Source of the DNA: a virus
IMG/VR virus record: IMGVR_UViG_3300009163_001912
Span: 1 to 20,159 of that record
Length of the DNA stretch: 20,159 bases
Strand: one strand, 5' to 3'
The position numbers and the translations under genes are program-made. The notes below the pieces were generated by a model. The model was not told where the DNA came from and searched no databases. It worked only from the letters and a program-made list of their open reading frames with translations. Below are positions 1,640 through 16,643 of this stretch, piece by piece. The number at the start of each line of letters is the position of its first letter. Position 1 is the first letter of the stretch.

Positions 1640-4600
1640 GTGACAGATTTTGTACACTTACATTGTCATTCAGAGTACTCATTGCTTGATGGGATGTCAA
1701 CGCCAGACGAAATAGCCAAGATTACCAGCACAAACGGACAAGTTGCCGCAGCTATTACCGATCATGGGACTATGGGAGGCGTACTCAAATTCCAGAATGC
1801 TTGCATCAAACACCAAGTTAAACCTTTATTTGGTATTGAGTCGTACTTTGTCCCATCTGTAAGCGCCGATGTTGAGGATAAATCGGAAAGGTTCCATCTA
1901 ATACTTTTGGCAAAGAATGATGAGGGGTTAAAGAAGTTATTTAAGATTAATGAGATTGCTTGGAATAAGAATTTCTATTATAAGCCTAGAATGGACTTTG
2001 ACCTACTTGAAGATTTGGTTGATAACGATATAGTTGCTCTTTCAGGGTGCATGGCAAGTGCAATCTCTAAAGCAATTACGTCTGGCAATACAGCAAGGGC
2101 TGAAGAATTGTCGGAAAGATTTATTAAGATATTTAAAGATGACTTTTACTACGAAGTACAGGCTTGGAACCCAAAAGAGCTTAATGATGGTATTTTTGAT
2201 TTGGCTAAAGCTTTCGGGAGAAAGGTTGTTGCTACGGCAGACTGTCATTTCCCATCACATAAGGATAAAGGATGCGAAGAGATTCTATTGATGGTGTCTC
2301 AATATACGGGATTGTCTCCAGCCGATCAGCGCTATGCAAAAGACCACGCACATATTGCTAATGATATGTCTTTAGACTTAGTGGCGAAAATCAATAATAT
2401 GTATCCTAATAGGCATCTTAGGTTTGATGAGATTAATCCGTATGTGGCTCATGTTGATGAGGTGGCTTCGTGGTTTTGTGATGCTGGGTACGATAGGGTT
2501 GATATTCTTGAAAATACTTTGGAAGTGGCGGAGAAGTGTACCGCTCGTATACACAAGCATAAGAATTTGCTTCCAAAGTATCTCAAGAATCTTGATTCGG
2601 ATGATTATCTGGGGGAGATTTGTCGGTTTAAGCTTGATGGTTTTGCTTTTGGCCCTGAGTATCAGGAGCGTTTGTCTGAGGAGCTGGGTATTATTAAACA
2701 GCTCGGTTTTGCGGATTATTTTTTGGTTGTTTGGGATTTGGTTAAGTGGGCTGACGCCAATGGTATTGGTCGGGGGACTGGGCGTGGTTCTGTTGGTGGT
2801 AGTTTGATGGCGTTTTTGCTTGAGATTACGGATGTTGATCCGATTAAATACAATCTTTTGTTTGCGCGTTTTATAAACCCCGAACGAAATGATTATCCTG
2901 ATATTGATTTGGATTTTGAAGATAAACGGCGTGAGGAAGTTCGTGAGTATTTGGCGAAGCGTTGGGGTGAGGATAAGGTTGCGGCGATTTCTATTTATGG
3001 TGAGTTTAAGCCGAAGTCTGCTGTGAAGGATGTTGCTCGTGTGTTGCAAGTTCCGTTTGCCGAAATTAATGCGATTACTCCGTATTTTGAAACTATTGAT
3101 GAGTTGAAGAAAACTGATAAGGGCAAGATTTTTACGAAGAAGTATCCTGAGATTACCAATATTGCTGAACGGTTGCAAGACCGTATTCGTAATGCTGGGG
3201 TTCATGCTGCTGGTATGGTTGTTTCGGCGTTGCCACTTAACGAGGTTTGTCCTGTTGAGTCCCGAAAGGATTCCCAAGGGTCGGAACGAACGATGGTTTC
3301 TGCTTTTGATATGGTTGACGCTGAGGCTGTAGGACTTATTAAAATAGACATTTTGGGCCTAAAGACCGTATCTGTGATTAAAGACTGCTTAGCGAGCATT
3401 CAGAAGCGTTACGGGCTAGATGTGAAGCAGGCTTCATTGGGCCTTGATGACCCAAAAGTGTTTGAAAACTTTAATAATATCAATACTGTCGGTGTGTTCC
3501 AAACTGATGCTGCTGCCTATCGTAATTTGATTGAGCGTATGGGTATTAGTAATTTCAATGATTTGGTTGTGTCCAATGCTCTTGTTCGTCCTGGCGCTTT
3601 GTTATCGCAGGGTCAAAGATATATTGATTGCAAGAAAGGCACTACCAAACCTCGCTATCCTAATGAGATTGTTAAACCTATTTTGGAGGAGACTTTTGGT
3701 ACTGTTATTTTCCAAGAACAGTTGATGCAAATGGCTGTGTTGTTGGCTGATTTTACTTGGTCAGAGGCCGACTCTTTGAGAAAGATCATTGGTAAGAAAA
3801 GAGATGCTGCCGGTTTTGATAAATATAAGAGCAAGTTTGTTAACAATAAGTTTTTGACAACTGCCCAGTCAGAAAAGATTTGGGCTGAGTTTGAAATGTC
3901 GGCTTTGTATATGTTTAACAAATCTCACGCTGTTGCTTACTCTATGATGTCGTATCAGACAATGTGGTTGAAAGTTCATTACCCGTTGGAATTTTTGTTA
4001 GCGTTGCTCTTCAATGAATCTGCCAGCGATAAAATTACTGCATACCTTATGGAAGCTCAAAGGCTTGGGTTAACGATTTACCCACCAGATATTAATAAGT
4101 CTGATGAGTTCTTTTCTATCTCCACACCCGATGAACCATTGGGTATTAGATTTGGGTTAACAAATATTGCAACTTGTGGTGCTGCTGCTATCAAAGAAAT
4201 ATTCAATAAGAGACCATTCCATTCTTTTGAAGAGTTTAGCAATAAATGTAGTAAATCTGCTGTTAAAGCTCCGTTAAGAGAAAACCTTGACAAAGTTGGG
4301 GCTTTTGTTTCACTTGGGTATATTTCCCAATACGATCATACAAAATACTTTTTACCAATTTTAGGATTTCCTATTAAGGCTAATGAGCATGTAACTGAGA
4401 TAGACGAATTTGTTGAGAACGCTTCTGATTTTCACGAAATCAATTCGGGTCTTACTTTAATCAAAGCAGTTGTTAGGTCAACCAAGAAAGCTAATAACTA
4501 TCTTAGAATAGAATTTGAAGACCACTCTGGCTCTTGCACTGTGTTTGGCGAAAGAAATACTGAAGTTGCTCAACGAGATTACCTTTATATCCTGATCGGT

Positions 4601-5056
4601 GATAGAACCTTGCACGCTTACTGTGATGTATACGAAGCCGAGAATTCTAAACTTTGGAATATCATGATGTTAAAGAAAAAAGGTGAAAACCACGAATACT
4701 CTTGGCTCTACAAACATGACATTGGATTTGTTACAGACCCAAAAACTTTGATGTATATTTTTAATATTAGAATATTTACAACATCTAAAGGTAAAGAAAT
4801 GGCAAGTGTTTATTGCTGGGATGGTCGGCAATTCTTTAAGATAGTAATTTTTGCCAATGTCCTTAAAGGTGTAAAGAGCAGGCTAAAAGAGAATAGTTGG
4901 TATGCTGTTCGGTTGTCTCGTATTGAAGATAAAAATTCTTTAACCCGATTAGACTCATATAAGCTTGAATATTCTGATAAAATTATTAGTGTGGAAGAAT
5001 ATATTGAAAAAAAGAATTTAAAAAAGGAAAATTATGAGCAGCATAGTTTGGTCTGA
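1640..5056 (+). CDS. dnaE: DNA polymerase III alpha subunit (DnaE type)
   Basis: This 1138-residue replicative polymerase is close to the bacterial DnaE length. The N-terminal PHP domain (about 1-215) opens with FVHLHCHSEYSLLDG. The polymerase core carries GRGTGRGSVGGS, the catalytic PDIDLDF (D421 and D423) and a third catalytic Asp in KIDILGLKT (D570). NAGVHAAGMV, FQEQLMQMA and FNKSHAVAYS (from about 759) are conserved class C motifs. A C-terminal OB-like segment lies at about 935-975. The GTG start is forced: the next Met is residue 19, inside the PHP motif. Its Shine-Dalgarno is weak and touches the start codon. No proofreading exonuclease domain of the PolC type is seen. Between about 2,540 and 3,650 Arg codons are nearly all CGN, while AGA/AGG dominate on both sides. 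Confidence 0.97.
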   Translation: MTDFVHLHCHSEYSLLDGMSTPDEIAKITSTNGQVAAAITDHGTMGGVLKFQNACIKHQVKPLFGIESYFVPSVSADVEDKSERFHLILLAKNDEGLKKLFKINEIAWNKNFYYKPRMDFDLLEDLVDNDIVALSGCMASAISKAITSGNTARAEELSERFIKIFKDDFYYEVQAWNPKELNDGIFDLAKAFGRKVVATADCHFPSHKDKGCEEILLMVSQYTGLSPADQRYAKDHAHIANDMSLDLVAKINNMYPNRHLRFDEINPYVAHVDEVASWFCDAGYDRVDILENTLEVAEKCTARIHKHKNLLPKYLKNLDSDDYLGEICRFKLDGFAFGPEYQERLSEELGIIKQLGFADYFLVVWDLVKWADANGIGRGTGRGSVGGSLMAFLLEITDVDPIKYNLLFARFINPERNDYPDIDLDFEDKRREEVREYLAKRWGEDKVAAISIYGEFKPKSAVKDVARVLQVPFAEINAITPYFETIDELKKTDKGKIFTKKYPEITNIAERLQDRIRNAGVHAAGMVVSALPLNEVCPVESRKDSQGSERTMVSAFDMVDAEAVGLIKIDILGLKTVSVIKDCLASIQKRYGLDVKQASLGLDDPKVFENFNNINTVGVFQTDAAAYRNLIERMGISNFNDLVVSNALVRPGALLSQGQRYIDCKKGTTKPRYPNEIVKPILEETFGTVIFQEQLMQMAVLLADFTWSEADSLRKIIGKKRDAAGFDKYKSKFVNNKFLTTAQSEKIWAEFEMSALYMFNKSHAVAYSMMSYQTMWLKVHYPLEFLLALLFNESASDKITAYLMEAQRLGLTIYPPDINKSDEFFSISTPDEPLGIRFGLTNIATCGAAAIKEIFNKRPFHSFEEFSNKCSKSAVKAPLRENLDKVGAFVSLGYISQYDHTKYFLPILGFPIKANEHVTEIDEFVENASDFHEINSGLTLIKAVVRSTKKANNYLRIEFEDHSGSCTVFGERNTEVAQRDYLYILIGDRTLHAYCDVYEAENSKLWNIMMLKKKGENHEYSWLYKHDIGFVTDPKTLMYIFNIRIFTTSKGKEMASVYCWDGRQFFKIVIFANVLKGVKSRLKENSWYAVRLSRIEDKNSLTRLDSYKLEYSDKIISVEEYIEKKNLKKENYEQHSLV

Positions 5057-6098
5057 CAATCAAATACCTAAGTTTAGTGAAGGCTACGGGTATACCCCCG
5101 ATTGCCTTTGGGAGCATATTGGCCCAAGCGGTTTACCAATTAGGCGTAACAAGCCATCTATGCCTGATGAGATAGGCAGATTGCAGGCAAATGTTCCGGG
5201 GATTGGCTACTTTCAAAGAGGGCACTTTGCTGATGAGATTATCATAAACCATTCGGTTCCAGATATGTTTGTTAAATCTAATAAATATGCAATCGGATAT
5301 ACATTTTGGGAAACAAATAGGCTGCCTGTTGACTGGGTTGAAAGATGTAATGAGATGGATGAGGTTTGGACAACTACTCATGCTATGAGGGATGTCTTTA
5401 TAAATTCCGGTATTACTAAACCAGTATATGAATTTAAATTAGGGGTTGACCCAAAAATTTATTTCCCTAAAAAAAGAACTCCTCACAACCAGTTTACATT
5501 TTTGTCAGTGGGCTCTCCGGCAACCCGCAAAAACTCTCAAATGTCTGTTAACGCTTTCTTAAAAGTTTTTGAGGGTAATGATAATTATAGACTTATTTAC
5601 AAATCTAATGGCCCTCCAGATGCCAGGATATGGACACACGGGATGATCGGACCAGTTGAGCACCCTCAAATTGAAGTGATTGATTATGAGGTATCTCATG
5701 AAGATCTTGCTGCCATATATGATAGATCTGATTGCTTACTATTTCCGACAAGCGGTGAAGGCTGGGGCAACATCCCATTTCAAGGAATAGCCAAAGGCAT
5801 TCCAACAATTTGCACAAATGTTTTAGCATGCACAGATTTTGCTCATATGTCTGTACCTTTAGATTTTGTTTGGGGAACTAAAAATATGTCTGGAAGATAT
5901 TCAAATGCTGGGCAGTGGGGCGAGCCGGATTTTGATGATCTATGTGATAAAATGTTATATGTAGCTAATAATTACGAAGAAGTTTCTGATAAAACGTATC
6001 AGAGTGCTGAATTTATTAATCAGAATATGACTTGGGAAAAAGTTTCTCAAAAATATATTGCTAGGTGTTGGGAAATTCTAAAAGAGACAGGGAACTAA
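5034..6098 (+). CDS. GT-B glycosyltransferase (GT4-like)
   Basis: The 354-residue protein is predicted to transfer sugar from an activated nucleotide-sugar. The C-terminal Rossmann half shows FLSVGSPATRKN (R165 and K166), an IYKSNGPPDAR segment (K190) and the donor-site signature TSGEGWGNIPFQGIAKGIPTI, read across 239-259. In retaining GT4 enzymes this element has the form E-x7-E; here E242 is present but the second acidic position is Q250, so activity or mechanism may differ. The start overlaps the polymerase gene by 23 bases and has AAGGA five bases upstream. It is the first of four genes of a probable sugar cassette. There is no signal peptide or membrane segment, so it should act in the cytoplasm. 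Donor and acceptor are unknown. Confidence 0.82.
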   Translation: MSSIVWSDNQIPKFSEGYGYTPDCLWEHIGPSGLPIRRNKPSMPDEIGRLQANVPGIGYFQRGHFADEIIINHSVPDMFVKSNKYAIGYTFWETNRLPVDWVERCNEMDEVWTTTHAMRDVFINSGITKPVYEFKLGVDPKIYFPKKRTPHNQFTFLSVGSPATRKNSQMSVNAFLKVFEGNDNYRLIYKSNGPPDARIWTHGMIGPVEHPQIEVIDYEVSHEDLAAIYDRSDCLLFPTSGEGWGNIPFQGIAKGIPTICTNVLACTDFAHMSVPLDFVWGTKNMSGRYSNAGQWGEPDFDDLCDKMLYVANNYEEVSDKTYQSAEFINQNMTWEKVSQKYIARCWEILKETGN

Positions 6099-7093
6099 TG
6101 AAGATACATTATTTAAGTTGTCATTCAATTCTTGAATATGACGAAGTGCAATTACTGACGGATTTAGGGCATGATGTGTTTTCTAATGGTGCATATATTG
6201 ATCCTCGTGGTCATATAACTTTACCAAGACCATCAATTAAAGGCGCTATTTATCATGAGGATTATGCAAAGCTATCAATTGATTTTGCTAAAACAAATCT
6301 CCCACCAGAATTAATTGACCCATTTGACGTGATAATAGTAATGCATTCACCAGATGTGATTATTCAAAATTGGGACAGGATAAAGCATAAGACTGTTATC
6401 TGGAGAACTATCGGGCAGTCAACAACTGATGTTGAATCATATTTAGAGCCAATGCGCAGGGAAGGTTTAAAGATTATTAGATACTCTCCGAATGAAAGAA
6501 GGCTCCCCAATTATATTGGCGAAGATGTTTTGATTAGGTTCTATAAAGATGAAGATGAGTTTAGTGGATGGGTCGGTTCTGATGGTGTTATTTCTTTTGC
6601 TCAAAGCCTTAAAGGTCGCAGAACACACTGCCATTATGAAGAAGTAAGTCGTGTTGTTGGTAAGTATGACGGTAAAATTTATGGACCAGGCAATGATGAT
6701 TTAGGAAGCCTAAATGGTGGTTCAATTTCTTATGATATGCAAATTAAAAAAATGCAAGAATCTAGGGCAATGATTTATGGAGGCACAGCCCCGGCTTCAT
6801 ACACTTTATCTTTTATTGAAGCACTAATGATGGGTTTACCAATAGTTGCAATAAGCAAAGACCTCGCAAATATTATTTATGATTTTGATTTTTACGAGGT
6901 TGACGAGATATTATCTAAAATCGGTGGTCTTGTTTGTGATAATGTTGAACAAATGTTTGAAAAAACAGAAATTTTATTAAACGATATTGATTTTGCAAAA
7001 GAAATTAGCAAAAAACAAAGAAACTTGGCAATTGAAATGTTTGGTAAAAAGAAAATAATTAAACAATGGGAGGAATTTTTAAATGGAAATTAA
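6098..7093 (+). CDS. Glycosyltransferase-like protein, GT-B fold probable
   Basis: The start at 6098 shares an A with the preceding stop (TAATG) and has a purine-rich GGGA a few bases upstream. It is preferred over an in-frame ATG at 6065 that would lie deep in the previous gene. The 331-residue product starts MKIHYLSCHSILEYDEVQLL, a typical first beta strand and helix of a GT-B N-domain, with PFDVIIVMHSPDVI at about 75-88. Near 230-252 TAPASYTLSFIEAL continues as MMGLPIVAI, the donor-binding helix with a conserved Glu (E241) and a Gly-Leu-Pro turn. No DxD motif is needed in this fold. It sits between another glycosyltransferase and a methyltransferase-like gene, with tight coupling on both sides. 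The acceptor cannot be predicted. Confidence 0.68.
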   Translation: MKIHYLSCHSILEYDEVQLLTDLGHDVFSNGAYIDPRGHITLPRPSIKGAIYHEDYAKLSIDFAKTNLPPELIDPFDVIIVMHSPDVIIQNWDRIKHKTVIWRTIGQSTTDVESYLEPMRREGLKIIRYSPNERRLPNYIGEDVLIRFYKDEDEFSGWVGSDGVISFAQSLKGRRTHCHYEEVSRVVGKYDGKIYGPGNDDLGSLNGGSISYDMQIKKMQESRAMIYGGTAPASYTLSFIEALMMGLPIVAISKDLANIIYDFDFYEVDEILSKIGGLVCDNVEQMFEKTEILLNDIDFAKEISKKQRNLAIEMFGKKKIIKQWEEFLNGN

Positions 7094-7754
7094 AACAATA
7101 ACTGAGCAGCTTCGTGATCTTGATGGTCAGCTAGTGATACATAATGAAGGTGAATGGCATGGTGGTGTAGGGGTTAGTGACTATAGCTCCTTTAATGATG
7201 CTGGAGTGGAGTGTGAGGTTGGTGAGTTTCTCTATAGCTTTATGCGGTTGATTAAACCAAATTTTGTTCTTGAAACAGGGACTCATCAAGGGGTTAGTTC
7301 TTCATACATGGGTCTTGCATTTAAAAATAATGGGTTTGGTATTTTAGATACTCATGAATTTGCTAAAGAAACATACGATATTGCTAACGCTAGATTTAAT
7401 AGATTAGGACTAACAGAACAAATTTTCTCACATCTTGGTGATGTTGGTGATTTAGTTTTAACTAAGCATTATGATTTTATATTTTTAGATACAGAGCCTC
7501 AAACTAGATTTGCAGAAATGGTTAAATTTTATCCAAACTTAAAGGATGGCGGGTATTTGTTTATTCACGATCTTCACAGGAACATGCATCAAATTAATAA
7601 TGAAGAACATGGATTTGCCTGGCCTTATGGAGAAATACCTAAAGAGATGACTGATTTGGTTTTAAATAAAAAACTTGTTCCATTTCATTTTGAAACTCCA
7701 AGAGGTTTGACAATGTTTTATAAGCCAATGAAATCAGATTATAATTGGTTGTAA
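7083..7754 (+). CDS. SAM-dependent methyltransferase-like protein (Methyltransf_24 type)
   Basis: The 223-residue product has a class I Rossmann methyltransferase pattern: motif I VLETGTHQGVSSS at about 62-74, an acidic D89 at the end of the second strand (FGILDTHE), YDFIFLDTEP at 130-139 with D136, and GGYLFIHDLH at 156-165. This spacing fits the Methyltransf_24 or cephalosporin-hydroxylase-like families often found in sugar and surface-polysaccharide clusters. It overlaps the preceding glycosyltransferase gene by 11 bases and has GGGAGGA upstream. Its likely role is O-methylation of a sugar or another small group added by the neighbouring transferases. This role is inferred from context; the methyltransferase fold is read from the motifs. 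DNA methyltransferase motifs such as DPPY or PC are absent. Confidence 0.68.
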   Translation: MEIKTITEQLRDLDGQLVIHNEGEWHGGVGVSDYSSFNDAGVECEVGEFLYSFMRLIKPNFVLETGTHQGVSSSYMGLAFKNNGFGILDTHEFAKETYDIANARFNRLGLTEQIFSHLGDVGDLVLTKHYDFIFLDTEPQTRFAEMVKFYPNLKDGGYLFIHDLHRNMHQINNEEHGFAWPYGEIPKEMTDLVLNKKLVPFHFETPRGLTMFYKPMKSDYNWL

Positions 7755-7772
7755 TAAAGATCATAAAAAATT

Positions 7773-8816
7773 ATGAGTGAAGCTAATGTTTTTTGTGATT
7801 TTCATCATCACTCTTTGCTAAGGTCTTTTGTTTTATTGTTTGAAAATCGTTTTAATTGGAATGTTTACAGACCAATAGGTATGGAATGGTTTTACGAAGG
7901 ATATTGGGGCTACAATAATATTGAAGCAACAGCCAAGCAATTTTTAGATATAGAAACTACTATTATTGCTGACAAGACTCCGGCTTTAAATATTGTTAAC
8001 TCTGTTGATGATTGTATCTATAATGTTTATGATCCAGGTCATGTAACAACTCATAAAGCCATTTTGTTAAATACTTTTAAAGAAATAAAATTTGATTACA
8101 TCATAGCTTCAGTACCACAAAATGTTGATATTTTTAAAGACTTAATTAAGAAATATCAACCTAATGCTAAATTGATTATTAATTTTGGTAACAATTGGAT
8201 AGAGCCTGAAGATGGCAGCAATGTGATGGCTTCAGTTAAAGGACAGGGCTGGGGGAGAGCAAATGTTGTTTATTACCACCAAGAGTTTGACACGAATCTT
8301 TTTAAACCTATTGATGAATTTGGGTTTAAGAAAATAAGCACTTATATAAATGTTCTGCAGGAAAATAAAGGTTGGTTTGATTTTTTAGATATTGAAAATT
8401 ATTTACTAGATAAAGAAATTGTTTTAAAAAGCTACGGTGGGCAATGCCGGGATGGGTTTTTTGATGGGGCAGAAGCAGTGTCAAAATCTGTAAAAGAAAA
8501 TGATTTTATTTTTCATGTAAAGCATACAGGTGATGGTTATGGTCACGCTCTGTATAACGCTTATGCTTGTGGTAAGCCAACAATAATCCGCAGTTCGTAC
8601 TACAAAGATTGTTTAGGTGAAGAATTGTTTAATGATGATAACTGCATTGATTTAGACAAGATGGATTTTGATGATGCTATGAATAAAATCGTAGATGTAA
8701 TCAATGATATTGATCAATTAAAAACTATGTCGGCTAATGCTTATAGAGCTTTTACCAATGCAGTTAATTTTGAGCAGGACGCAGAAAAGGTAAAAAATTG
8801 GCTTGCAAATTTGTAG
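7773..8816 (+). CDS. Glycosyltransferase-like protein (GT-B)
   Basis: The 347-residue protein ends with a GT-B donor-site element: HVKHTGDGYGHALYNAYACG at about 248-267 followed by KPTI, where GYGHALYNAYACGKP replaces the usual EGFG-x-x-x-x-EAMACGKP (His at the first helix position, Asn near the usual second Glu). An upstream INFGNNWIEPEDGSN region and a strand-helix repeat before it fit an N-terminal Rossmann half. The N-terminus is His- and Phe-rich (CDFHHHSLLRSFVLLFENRF), with no clear signal peptide. There is an 18-base gap from the methyltransferase gene and only a weak purine stretch before the ATG. It closes the four-gene cassette, and a new promoter follows. The absence of the usual Glu pair makes the exact family uncertain. 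Confidence 0.6.
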   Translation: MSEANVFCDFHHHSLLRSFVLLFENRFNWNVYRPIGMEWFYEGYWGYNNIEATAKQFLDIETTIIADKTPALNIVNSVDDCIYNVYDPGHVTTHKAILLNTFKEIKFDYIIASVPQNVDIFKDLIKKYQPNAKLIINFGNNWIEPEDGSNVMASVKGQGWGRANVVYYHQEFDTNLFKPIDEFGFKKISTYINVLQENKGWFDFLDIENYLLDKEIVLKSYGGQCRDGFFDGAEAVSKSVKENDFIFHVKHTGDGYGHALYNAYACGKPTIIRSSYYKDCLGEELFNDDNCIDLDKMDFDDAMNKIVDVINDIDQLKTMSANAYRAFTNAVNFEQDAEKVKNWLANL

Positions 8817-8886: not shown

Positions 8887-9801
8887 ATGCTAATTGTAGA
8901 TAAAAGAAAAGGCGATACAATGCCTATTCACGAAGTTATTGCAACCCCAAGTGTTGGCTTAAATAGAGCTTTAAATGGTGGTTTAAATTCTGGGGCAACC
9001 CATTTATTCTGGGGGACACCATCTGTTGGTAAAACGACAATGTGCTTTAGGATTATTGCAGAAGCCCAAAAGATGGGATACCGGCCAGTAATCGTGGATT
9101 CGGAGTCATCTTATAATGATGAGTACGCAAAGAAATGCGGAATAAATATTGATGATGTCGTAATTGTTCAATCAACTGTTGTTGAAGATATCATGAAAAA
9201 TATCATTACATATTTAAGTGATGATAAAGAAAAACATATTTTTCTATTTGACTCTTTGTCTAATATTGTTAAAGAAGAATTTTATGATAAACCTGAGAGT
9301 GGTAAAGCAATGGGGTTATCGGCTAGGTCGCAAGGGTATTTCTTACAGAAGTTGGTAAACTATTTACACAAAGAGCGAAACATCATGTTATTTGTTGCTC
9401 ACCAAACCGTTGATCTCAGCGGAATGTATGCCATCACTAAGGCCAAAATGGGAAATACTGTTCACCATAACATGTCTAACATTGTTAAATTGTTCTTGTC
9501 TATGTCTAAAAATGAAATGGAACGGGAAGAAAATAACATGATTACAAGCCAAAAAGCAACATGGACTGTTGAGAAAACAAAACAATGCCCAACAATTGGC
9601 AGCACTGGTTATTATTATGTTCTTCCCCAGCAGGGTCAAATAGACACTAAACGAGAATTGATTGATATTGCAATTGATATGGATATTATCCAGCGCAAAG
9701 GTGCTTGGTATTCGTACAAAGAAAGTAAATGGAATGGTTTGTCAAGCATTGATCTTTCCGATAAAGAAGTCTTGGAGTTGGAAAAGGCAATCAAGAAGTG
9801 A
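8887..9801 (+). CDS. RecA/UvsX-like recombinase
   Basis: The 304-residue ATPase has Walker A GTPSVGKTT at 43-51, an acidic VDSESSYNDEYA at 70-81 that aligns with the catalytic-Glu strand of RecA, and Walker B HIFLFDSLSN at 117-126 with D122. KAKMGNTVHHNMSNIVKLF at about 185-203 resembles the DNA-binding L2 region and the strand after it in RecA. It would form filaments on ssDNA and drive strand exchange for recombination-dependent replication or repair. The length is shorter than bacterial RecA and near that of phage versions. The start has AGGAG five bases upstream. It begins a co-directional operon with resolvase and nuclease genes, preceded by its own likely promoter. RadA-like or DnaB-like ATPases are less likely, because the L2-like region is present and no zinc finger is seen. 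Confidence 0.83.
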   Translation: MLIVDKRKGDTMPIHEVIATPSVGLNRALNGGLNSGATHLFWGTPSVGKTTMCFRIIAEAQKMGYRPVIVDSESSYNDEYAKKCGINIDDVVIVQSTVVEDIMKNIITYLSDDKEKHIFLFDSLSNIVKEEFYDKPESGKAMGLSARSQGYFLQKLVNYLHKERNIMLFVAHQTVDLSGMYAITKAKMGNTVHHNMSNIVKLFLSMSKNEMEREENNMITSQKATWTVEKTKQCPTIGSTGYYYVLPQQGQIDTKRELIDIAIDMDIIQRKGAWYSYKESKWNGLSSIDLSDKEVLELEKAIKK

Positions 9802-15759: not shown

Positions 15760-15819
15760 ATGAATAAAATAAAAAAAAGAGTTGTTAGCCTATATTTTAT
15801 TGCTATACTAATAGCATGA
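15760..15819 (+). CDS. Candidate 19-residue upstream ORF (leader peptide-like)
   Basis: An ATG at 15760 opens a 19-codon frame whose product starts MNKIKKRVV and continues SLYFIAILIA. The stop TGA overlaps the glycosyltransferase ATG (ATGA at 15816-15819). The basic start and hydrophobic end look like a short signal anchor or leader peptide, but no Shine-Dalgarno precedes it. It overlaps the proposed promoter, so both cannot be active in the simplest model. It could be a chance frame. Confidence 0.22.
   Translation: MNKIKKRVVSLYFIAILIA
15782..15815 (+). promoter_or_regulatory. Promoter with extended -10 for a leaderless glycosyltransferase message
   Basis: TTGTTA at 15782-15787 is a -35 candidate, a 16-base gap follows, then TGC-TATACT (15801-15809), an extended -10. 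The ATG at 15816 is only seven bases from the end of the -10, so the transcript would start at or next to the ATG with no leader. No Shine-Dalgarno precedes the gene, which agrees. An inverted repeat GCTAT-ACTA-ATAGC at 15802-15815 overlays the -10 and could be an operator. Read from sequence; use in vivo is inferred. Confidence 0.5.
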
Positions 15820-16643
15820 CAAAATTACAAGTAGAAACCGAAAGCATAGACATAACAGAAGAAATGACTAAATCATGGTATGTGATGTTTGCTATTCCAT
15901 GCTATGACCAACAGATAACAGAAGCAACATTTATGTCAATAATAAAAACTGTAATGTTTTTTAGAGATCATGGCATAAAGTTTGCTGTATCAACAATCAC
16001 TGATAGTTTAATTTCAAGAGCTAGAAATAACATTACCGCTAAATTTTTAGCAAATAGTGAGTTTACTCATATGATGTTTATTGATGCAGATATTGGGTTT
16101 GAGCCGCAAGATATTATAAAATTATTGTGGCATGATAAGGAAGTTATGACTGGGGCTTATCCGATTAAAGATATTAATTGGAAAAAAGTTAAGCATGATG
16201 CTGTTGTTAATGATGTTAACTATAAAGAATTGATGTCAAAGAGTTTGCGATTTGTTGTCAATCCTGTAAGGGATAGCGAACAAACAACTTTAAAAGTTGA
16301 AAATGGGGCAATAGAAATATTTGACGCTGGCACCGGATTTATGTTAATTAAAAGATCATGTTTTGAGAAGCTAATTGAGGCCTATCCTAATTTAAAATAC
16401 GATGATGATACTGGTTCGTTAACAGAAAAAGAAAAAGAATATACGTATGCTTTTTTTAATTCATATATTGACCCGCACCGAAATAGATTCTTATCTGAAG
16501 ATTATGGATTTTGTAGATATTGGCAGGATATTAAAGGTTCAATTTGGGTTGATCCAGGTATAACTTTGGTTCATGTTGGTCGTATTAGATACACCGGAAG
16601 TATGTTAACTTATTTGCAAGACATTGACGCATCTAAGAAGTAA
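15816..16643 (+). CDS. GT-A fold glycosyltransferase
   Basis: The 275-residue protein has the GT2-like GT-A order: a strand FAIPCYDQQIT at about 25-35, then SLISRARNNITAKFL, the metal-binding DxD in MFIDADIGFEP (D90-A91-D92), a SEDYGFCRYW acceptor/catalytic motif with E228-D229, and a late HVG with H253. Similar proteins occur in large phages and may act on phage structural proteins or host-surface sugars, or on modified bases. There is no signal peptide or membrane segment, so a cytoplasmic role is likely. It sits apart from the three GT-B-like genes. Its promoter seems independent, and no Shine-Dalgarno is visible. Donor and acceptor are unknown. Confidence 0.78.
   Translation: MTKLQVETESIDITEEMTKSWYVMFAIPCYDQQITEATFMSIIKTVMFFRDHGIKFAVSTITDSLISRARNNITAKFLANSEFTHMMFIDADIGFEPQDIIKLLWHDKEVMTGAYPIKDINWKKVKHDAVVNDVNYKELMSKSLRFVVNPVRDSEQTTLKVENGAIEIFDAGTGFMLIKRSCFEKLIEAYPNLKYDDDTGSLTEKEKEYTYAFFNSYIDPHRNRFLSEDYGFCRYWQDIKGSIWVDPGITLVHVGRIRYTGSMLTYLQDIDASKK

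Follow-up and report, generated by a model that had tools for sequence, protein, structure and literature searches.

The four genes between dnaE and uvsX in the window, which is the whole analysed stretch of 20,159 nucleotides, probably constitute a recombining cassette that builds an oligosaccharide, O-methylated in most of its forms, on a virion protein. The enzyme classes, the gene order, the capsid-module site of homologous cassettes, the nested phylogeny and the cassette swapping are directly supported. The swap slot and the derivation from capsid modules are the two most informative features, and both go beyond what the first-pass annotation saw.

Gene layout and enzyme classes

The window is a 20 kb piece of the genome of an uncultivated freshwater (lake) phage, and megablast with its full sequence found no match among phage records. 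Its gene order (primase, ssDNA-binding protein, nucleotidase, DnaE, cassette, UvsX, Cas4, RuvC, TerS, TerL) agrees with that of the Streptomyces phage Jay2Jay (Stanwilliamsviridae), and longer relatives of the window have portal, protease, capsid, RNR and ThyX in common with Jay2Jay. The relevant features are as follows.

1640..5056, + strand: dnaE-type DNA polymerase III alpha, bounding the swap slot on the left (phrog_405, E 1.6e-288)
5034..6098, + strand: GT1, GT4-type GT-B glycosyltransferase of 354 aa, cassette gene 1 (Pfam and PHROG)
6098..7093, + strand: GT2, GT4-like GT-B glycosyltransferase by predicted fold, no Pfam/PHROG family
7083..7754, + strand: MT, class-I SAM O-methyltransferase-like (Methyltransf_24/Methyltransf_3, Pfam above cut-off)
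7773..8816, + strand: GT3, GT4-like GT-B glycosyltransferase by predicted fold, most divergent cassette enzyme
8887..9801, + strand: UvsX/RecA-like recombinase, bounding the swap slot on the right (phrog_97, E 1.4e-40; Pfam RecA)
15816-16643: gene behind terminase, GT-A-like (phrog_1574 at 140 bits, of unknown function; a weak Anp1 match below cut-off)

The cassette (5034-8816) comprises four complete ORFs between dnaE and the UvsX/RecA gene. The ORFs overlap or almost touch, and the ATG of GT1 sits 23 nt within the 3' end of dnaE, which bears out the tight coupling from inside dnaE described in the first-pass annotation. The best start of GT2 is the ATG at 6098, overlapping the stop codon of GT1, and alignments with its relatives begin at residue 12 of the ORF as listed with a GTG start. 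The dN/dS values of the cassette genes (0.035-0.24) indicate purifying selection, most relaxed in GT3, and the genes are therefore regarded as real and constrained. The GT-A enzyme after terminase, earlier mentioned alongside the cassette, is a real gene, but since it is kept across the window's family regardless of cassette type, it probably has a separate function outside the cassette.

The earlier assignment of three GT-B-like proteins and one SAM-methyltransferase-like protein is confirmed by Pfam for GT1 and MT, and by AlphaFold models and Foldseek for GT2 and GT3. GT1 matches the Pfam families GT4-conflict (36.2 bits, cut-off 26) and Glyco_trans_1_4 (31 bits, cut-off 27) and the glycosyltransferase family phrog_2170 (E 1.5e-33), and glycosyltransferases of Streptomyces phages are 34-37% identical to it. 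MT matches Methyltransf_24 (32.3 bits, cut-off 26.3) and Methyltransf_3 (24.1 bits, cut-off 22), and is SAM O-methyltransferase-like by these curated profiles. With Pfam and PHROG profiles, GT2 gave no match and GT3 a sub-threshold match only. The structure-based search recommended at first pass, performed with the predicted models of GT2 and GT3 (pLDDT 86.8 and 86.7, respectively), matched both to GT4 GT-B enzymes (E 5e-12 and 7e-9, respectively). The best PDB match of the GT2 model is a methylmannose-polysaccharide mannosyltransferase (Z 23.7), and the GT3 model has PDB matches to GT4 enzymes including SdgB, GtfA and TarM. Thus, GT1 is GT4-type by profile, while GT2 and GT3 are GT4-like GT-B enzymes by predicted fold. 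The protein O-glycosyltransferases SdgB and GtfA are included among the fold matches of the GT2 and GT3 models, and T4 DNA glucosyltransferases are absent among the matches listed, though unlisted families may exist. A PDB entry named 'phage HY126 glycosyltransferase', for which no paper was found, ranks 42nd for the GT2 model in Foldseek.

The canonical E-x7-E motif region is present but altered in the three glycosyltransferases. In GT1, the second E is replaced by Q. The region in GT2 is without the first E, and that in GT3 reads GDGYGHALYN; the key residues are invariant in the families of GT2 and GT3, respectively.

Contents of the dnaE-uvsX interval

We compared slot contents among relatives of the window's recombinase. 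Type A slots hold GT1, GT2, usually a methyltransferase, and GT3, whereas a GT2-family enzyme is paired with a cytidylyltransferase in type B slots, some of which also have GT1. Other slots contain a methyltransferase set (L157 and L158), a GT25-like and methyltransferase pair (L153), a GT2-family and MptE-like pair (L107), or non-sugar genes as judged by inspection (L146), and the interval in L101 is empty, with a length of 10 bp. Within type A, methyltransferases of unrelated types alternate at one position, which is occupied by Methyltransf_24, FkbM, a protein without a Pfam match, or nothing. A further variant has MT and two extra genes, GTx348 and GTx245, at this position, and one GTx348 homologue is a GT2-family glycosyltransferase. 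In L003-L005, the slot between dnaE and recA keeps GT1, GT2, MT, GTx348, GTx245 and GT3, four of which are found in the window.

The dnaE and recA DNA of L017 is 88-91% identical to that of the window, yet its slot carries GT1, a GT2-family enzyme and a cytidylyltransferase. Conversely, the dnaE of L003 is 68-73% identical to that of the window, but GT1, GT2, MT and the spacer before recA are 84-95% identical. Like backbones with unrelated sugar-enzyme sets, and unlike backbones sharing one, mark the dnaE-uvsX gap in the window's family as a swap site at the level of sequence comparison. Of the co-occurrence of the four genes with a DnaE-type polymerase, proposed earlier as a check, the position is conserved among the relatives while the content is swapped.

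Jay2Jay and its relatives share the replication block helicase-primase-SSB-DnaE-UvsX-HJR-Cas4-RuvC-TerL with the window, but the DnaE-UvsX gap of Jay2Jay holds a small gene and MazG, without sugar enzymes. Bacterial surface-polysaccharide (serotype) loci have fixed flanking genes and exchangeable glycosyltransferase and sugar-methyltransferase content. The window slot resembles such loci in its flanks and exchangeable content, and differs from them in lying in a phage replication module with no polymerase or flippase recognised.

Homologous operons in capsid modules

Homologous operons were found by searches with the methyltransferase and with a GT2 alignment. Unrelated phages carry the collinear operon GTa-GT1-GT2-MT-GTx348-GTx245-GT3. 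The earlier idea of a multi-gene glycan pathway is upheld. The gene upstream of the operon encodes the major capsid protein (phrog_283, P22 coat/Phage_capsid_2), a call that agrees with annotated isolates, and is itself preceded by a scaffold protein gene. A phrog_283 capsid gene is upstream in 35 of the 66 GT2 loci outside the window's family; these 35 loci represent 18 lineages at 80% capsid identity, only three groups at 60%. In L210 and L216, a capsid gene of an unrelated family (phrog_1357) precedes the cassette. Searches of 50,697 phage records with GT2 (by tblastn), GT3 and one external GT2 found no homologue, and a GT2 scan of genome contigs gave four MAG contigs only, one of which (L256) has the scaffold-capsid-cassette operon. 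L256 (JAHISN010000064.1) was assigned to a Patescibacteria MAG, which means either that the phage infects this host or that the contig was misbinned.

All 19 dnaE-slot rows of the GT2 tree group in a single clade (100/99), nested in successive sisters from capsid contexts. This nesting among capsid-module copies suggests that the type A cassette apparently moved from a head module into the replication module. The capsid-gene linkage holds for the homologous operons elsewhere, while the window's own copy is in the replication module. Other related cassettes also lie near replication or recombination genes (clamp loader in L248/L249, Sak4 in L218, DnaD-like in L214 and Cas4 in L209), and location alone is therefore not decisive for the target.

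In Jay2Jay, gp46 is GT1-like and adjoins RNR and head genes, and gp37-39 are glycosyltransferase/nucleotidyltransferase genes. A GT1 paralogue, the counterpart of gp46, is located at G007:C1:71416-72429 and G004:C1:8290-9309, beside RNR and adjoining the portal-capsid module. It is a candidate priming glycosyltransferase.

The probable acceptor of the glycan

A virion-protein glycan is favoured because the homologous operon is capsid-linked, the proteins are without membrane segments, the methyltransferase is exchanged and GT3 is relaxed. Priming of a virion protein, most likely a capsid protein, may be due to a distinct GT4-type enzyme encoded next to the head genes (GT46/GTa type). GT1, GT2 and GT3 would then lengthen the oligosaccharide using host nucleotide sugars, and the methyltransferase would O-methylate one sugar. 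Recombination through the conserved flanking genes dnaE and uvsX would replace either the complete set or its central portion to give the particle a new sugar coat, and the benefit may be that co-infecting phages, the host or grazers recognise the particle differently.

According to PMC12363180, virion glycosylation is described for few phages; citing Freeman et al. 2023, that paper attributes virion glycosylation to the actinophage glycosyltransferases Che8 gp108-110, Corndog gp38 and those of Myrna, with capsid or tail-tube proteins as the acceptors in mycobacteriophages and Che8 gp110 essential for capsid glycosylation. Like the window cassette, these systems are clustered, actinophage-encoded glycosyltransferases. 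However, the three glycosyltransferase genes of Che8 lie side by side close to the end of the genome, and no methyltransferase is annotated in that group, whereas the system here has as many as six enzymes, occupies a swap slot and lies between dnaE and uvsX. Comparison of the cassette families with Che8 gp108-110 by HMM and hhalign was not significant, Che8 being the one example compared and homology being no requirement of function.

Alternatively, as proposed at first pass, the cassette might glycosylate phage DNA bases against nucleases, as for T4 hydroxymethylcytosine: a C5 methylase would give 5-methylcytosine, an oxidase would provide the hydroxyl group, and the glycosyltransferases would add a methylated sugar chain. 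We consider this unlikely. T4 likewise has its DNA glucosylation genes between the DNA polymerase gene and uvsX, among them that of the beta-glucosyltransferase, also a GT-B enzyme, but this T4 enzyme has no sequence similarity to the cassette families, and the T4 interval is without a three-glycosyltransferase/methyltransferase operon. T4 has the gp42 hydroxymethylase, while a ThyA/dCMP-hydroxymethylase homologue is found in none of the 16 contigs of the window's family, the window being a genome fragment and the 105.7 kb relative G007 being included, and in two jumbo contigs only among the 25 outside contigs with GT2. A search for Tet/JBP gave no match, a weak absence because the control search was silent too. 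Authors working on freshwater actinophages suggested that a phage glycosyltransferase serves to protect DNA or to alter the cell wall (PMC10202952).

A C5-cytosine methylase in the g10-g11 interval co-occurs with type A cassettes, being present in 12 of the 13 recA clusters with type A and in 4 of the 25 remaining clusters (Fisher test, p 7e-6, uncorrected for phylogeny). This co-occurrence may reflect linkage because the two slots are ~1 kb apart; the window has no such methylase in the interval, and none of the 25 outside contigs with GT2 encodes a C5-cytosine methylase. The interval (L020 15226-17774 / G007:C1:11510-14668) is a second variable slot ~1 kb downstream of the cassette slot, with the C5-cytosine DNA methylase in most type A relatives and, additionally in G007, a DpdA-type 7-deazaguanine DNA enzyme; both are missing from the window. 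G007 (L054-L059) is apparently near-complete, its two ends appearing contiguous in G010. Besides DpdA, it encodes two 2OG-Fe(II) oxygenases (53641-53895 and 80564-80797) and a cytochrome P450, which could fit base modification, and also a tryptophan halogenase-like protein and a Dam methylase. Nevertheless, a virion target is favoured over DNA, given that the operon adjoins capsid genes in the head modules of other phages and that the searches revealed no machinery for hydroxymethyl bases.

It is comparably improbable that the enzymes prevent superinfection by modifying a wall polymer or glycolipid of the host cell surface. The GT4 fold matches do include PimA, TarM and the methylmannose-polysaccharide mannosyltransferase, and the type B cytidylyltransferase resembles those of wall-polymer precursors. 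FkbM/RfbT-like methyltransferases act in surface-glycan pathways, and those named by profile here would fit surface-glycan loci. However, a simple hydropathy scan found no membrane segments in the cassette proteins, no flippase or membrane glycosyltransferase was recognised in the slot contents examined, and a capsid gene directly precedes the homologous operons. Virion or host-surface modification had been offered earlier as one alternative; the capsid-linked operons support its former half, and the lack of membrane segments and flippase speaks against the latter.

The methylmannose polysaccharide mannosyltransferase works alongside a sugar O-methyltransferase. An auxiliary metabolic role, with a storage glycan or a small methylated glycoside as product and no connection to the particle or its DNA, is nonetheless very improbable: this enzyme is the nearest fold for GT2 and GT3, with BshA and sucrose-phosphate synthase also close, but sequence identity to these fold matches is just 10-17%, GT4 folds are widespread, and cassette swapping and capsid-gene linkage are unexpected for metabolic genes.

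Returning to the virion-protein glycan, we tentatively propose a phage serotype-switching locus, at which uncultivated freshwater phages may exchange whole virion-glycan cassettes between lineages at dnaE-uvsX. Type A would have been recruited once from the capsid modules of unrelated phages, and the particles of close relatives would differ in their, often methylated, oligosaccharides. The type of function is known. What appears new is the operon conserved next to capsid genes, together with its apparent transfer to the replication module and the swap slot there; no literature on such capsid-linked cassettes was found among open-licence papers. If true, an operon of up to seven enzymes behind capsid genes in many uncultivated phages, exchanged in a serotype-like manner among actinophages of fresh water, would mean that variation of particle glycans is widespread in phages, and would speak against the common assumption that phage glycosyltransferases serve DNA protection.
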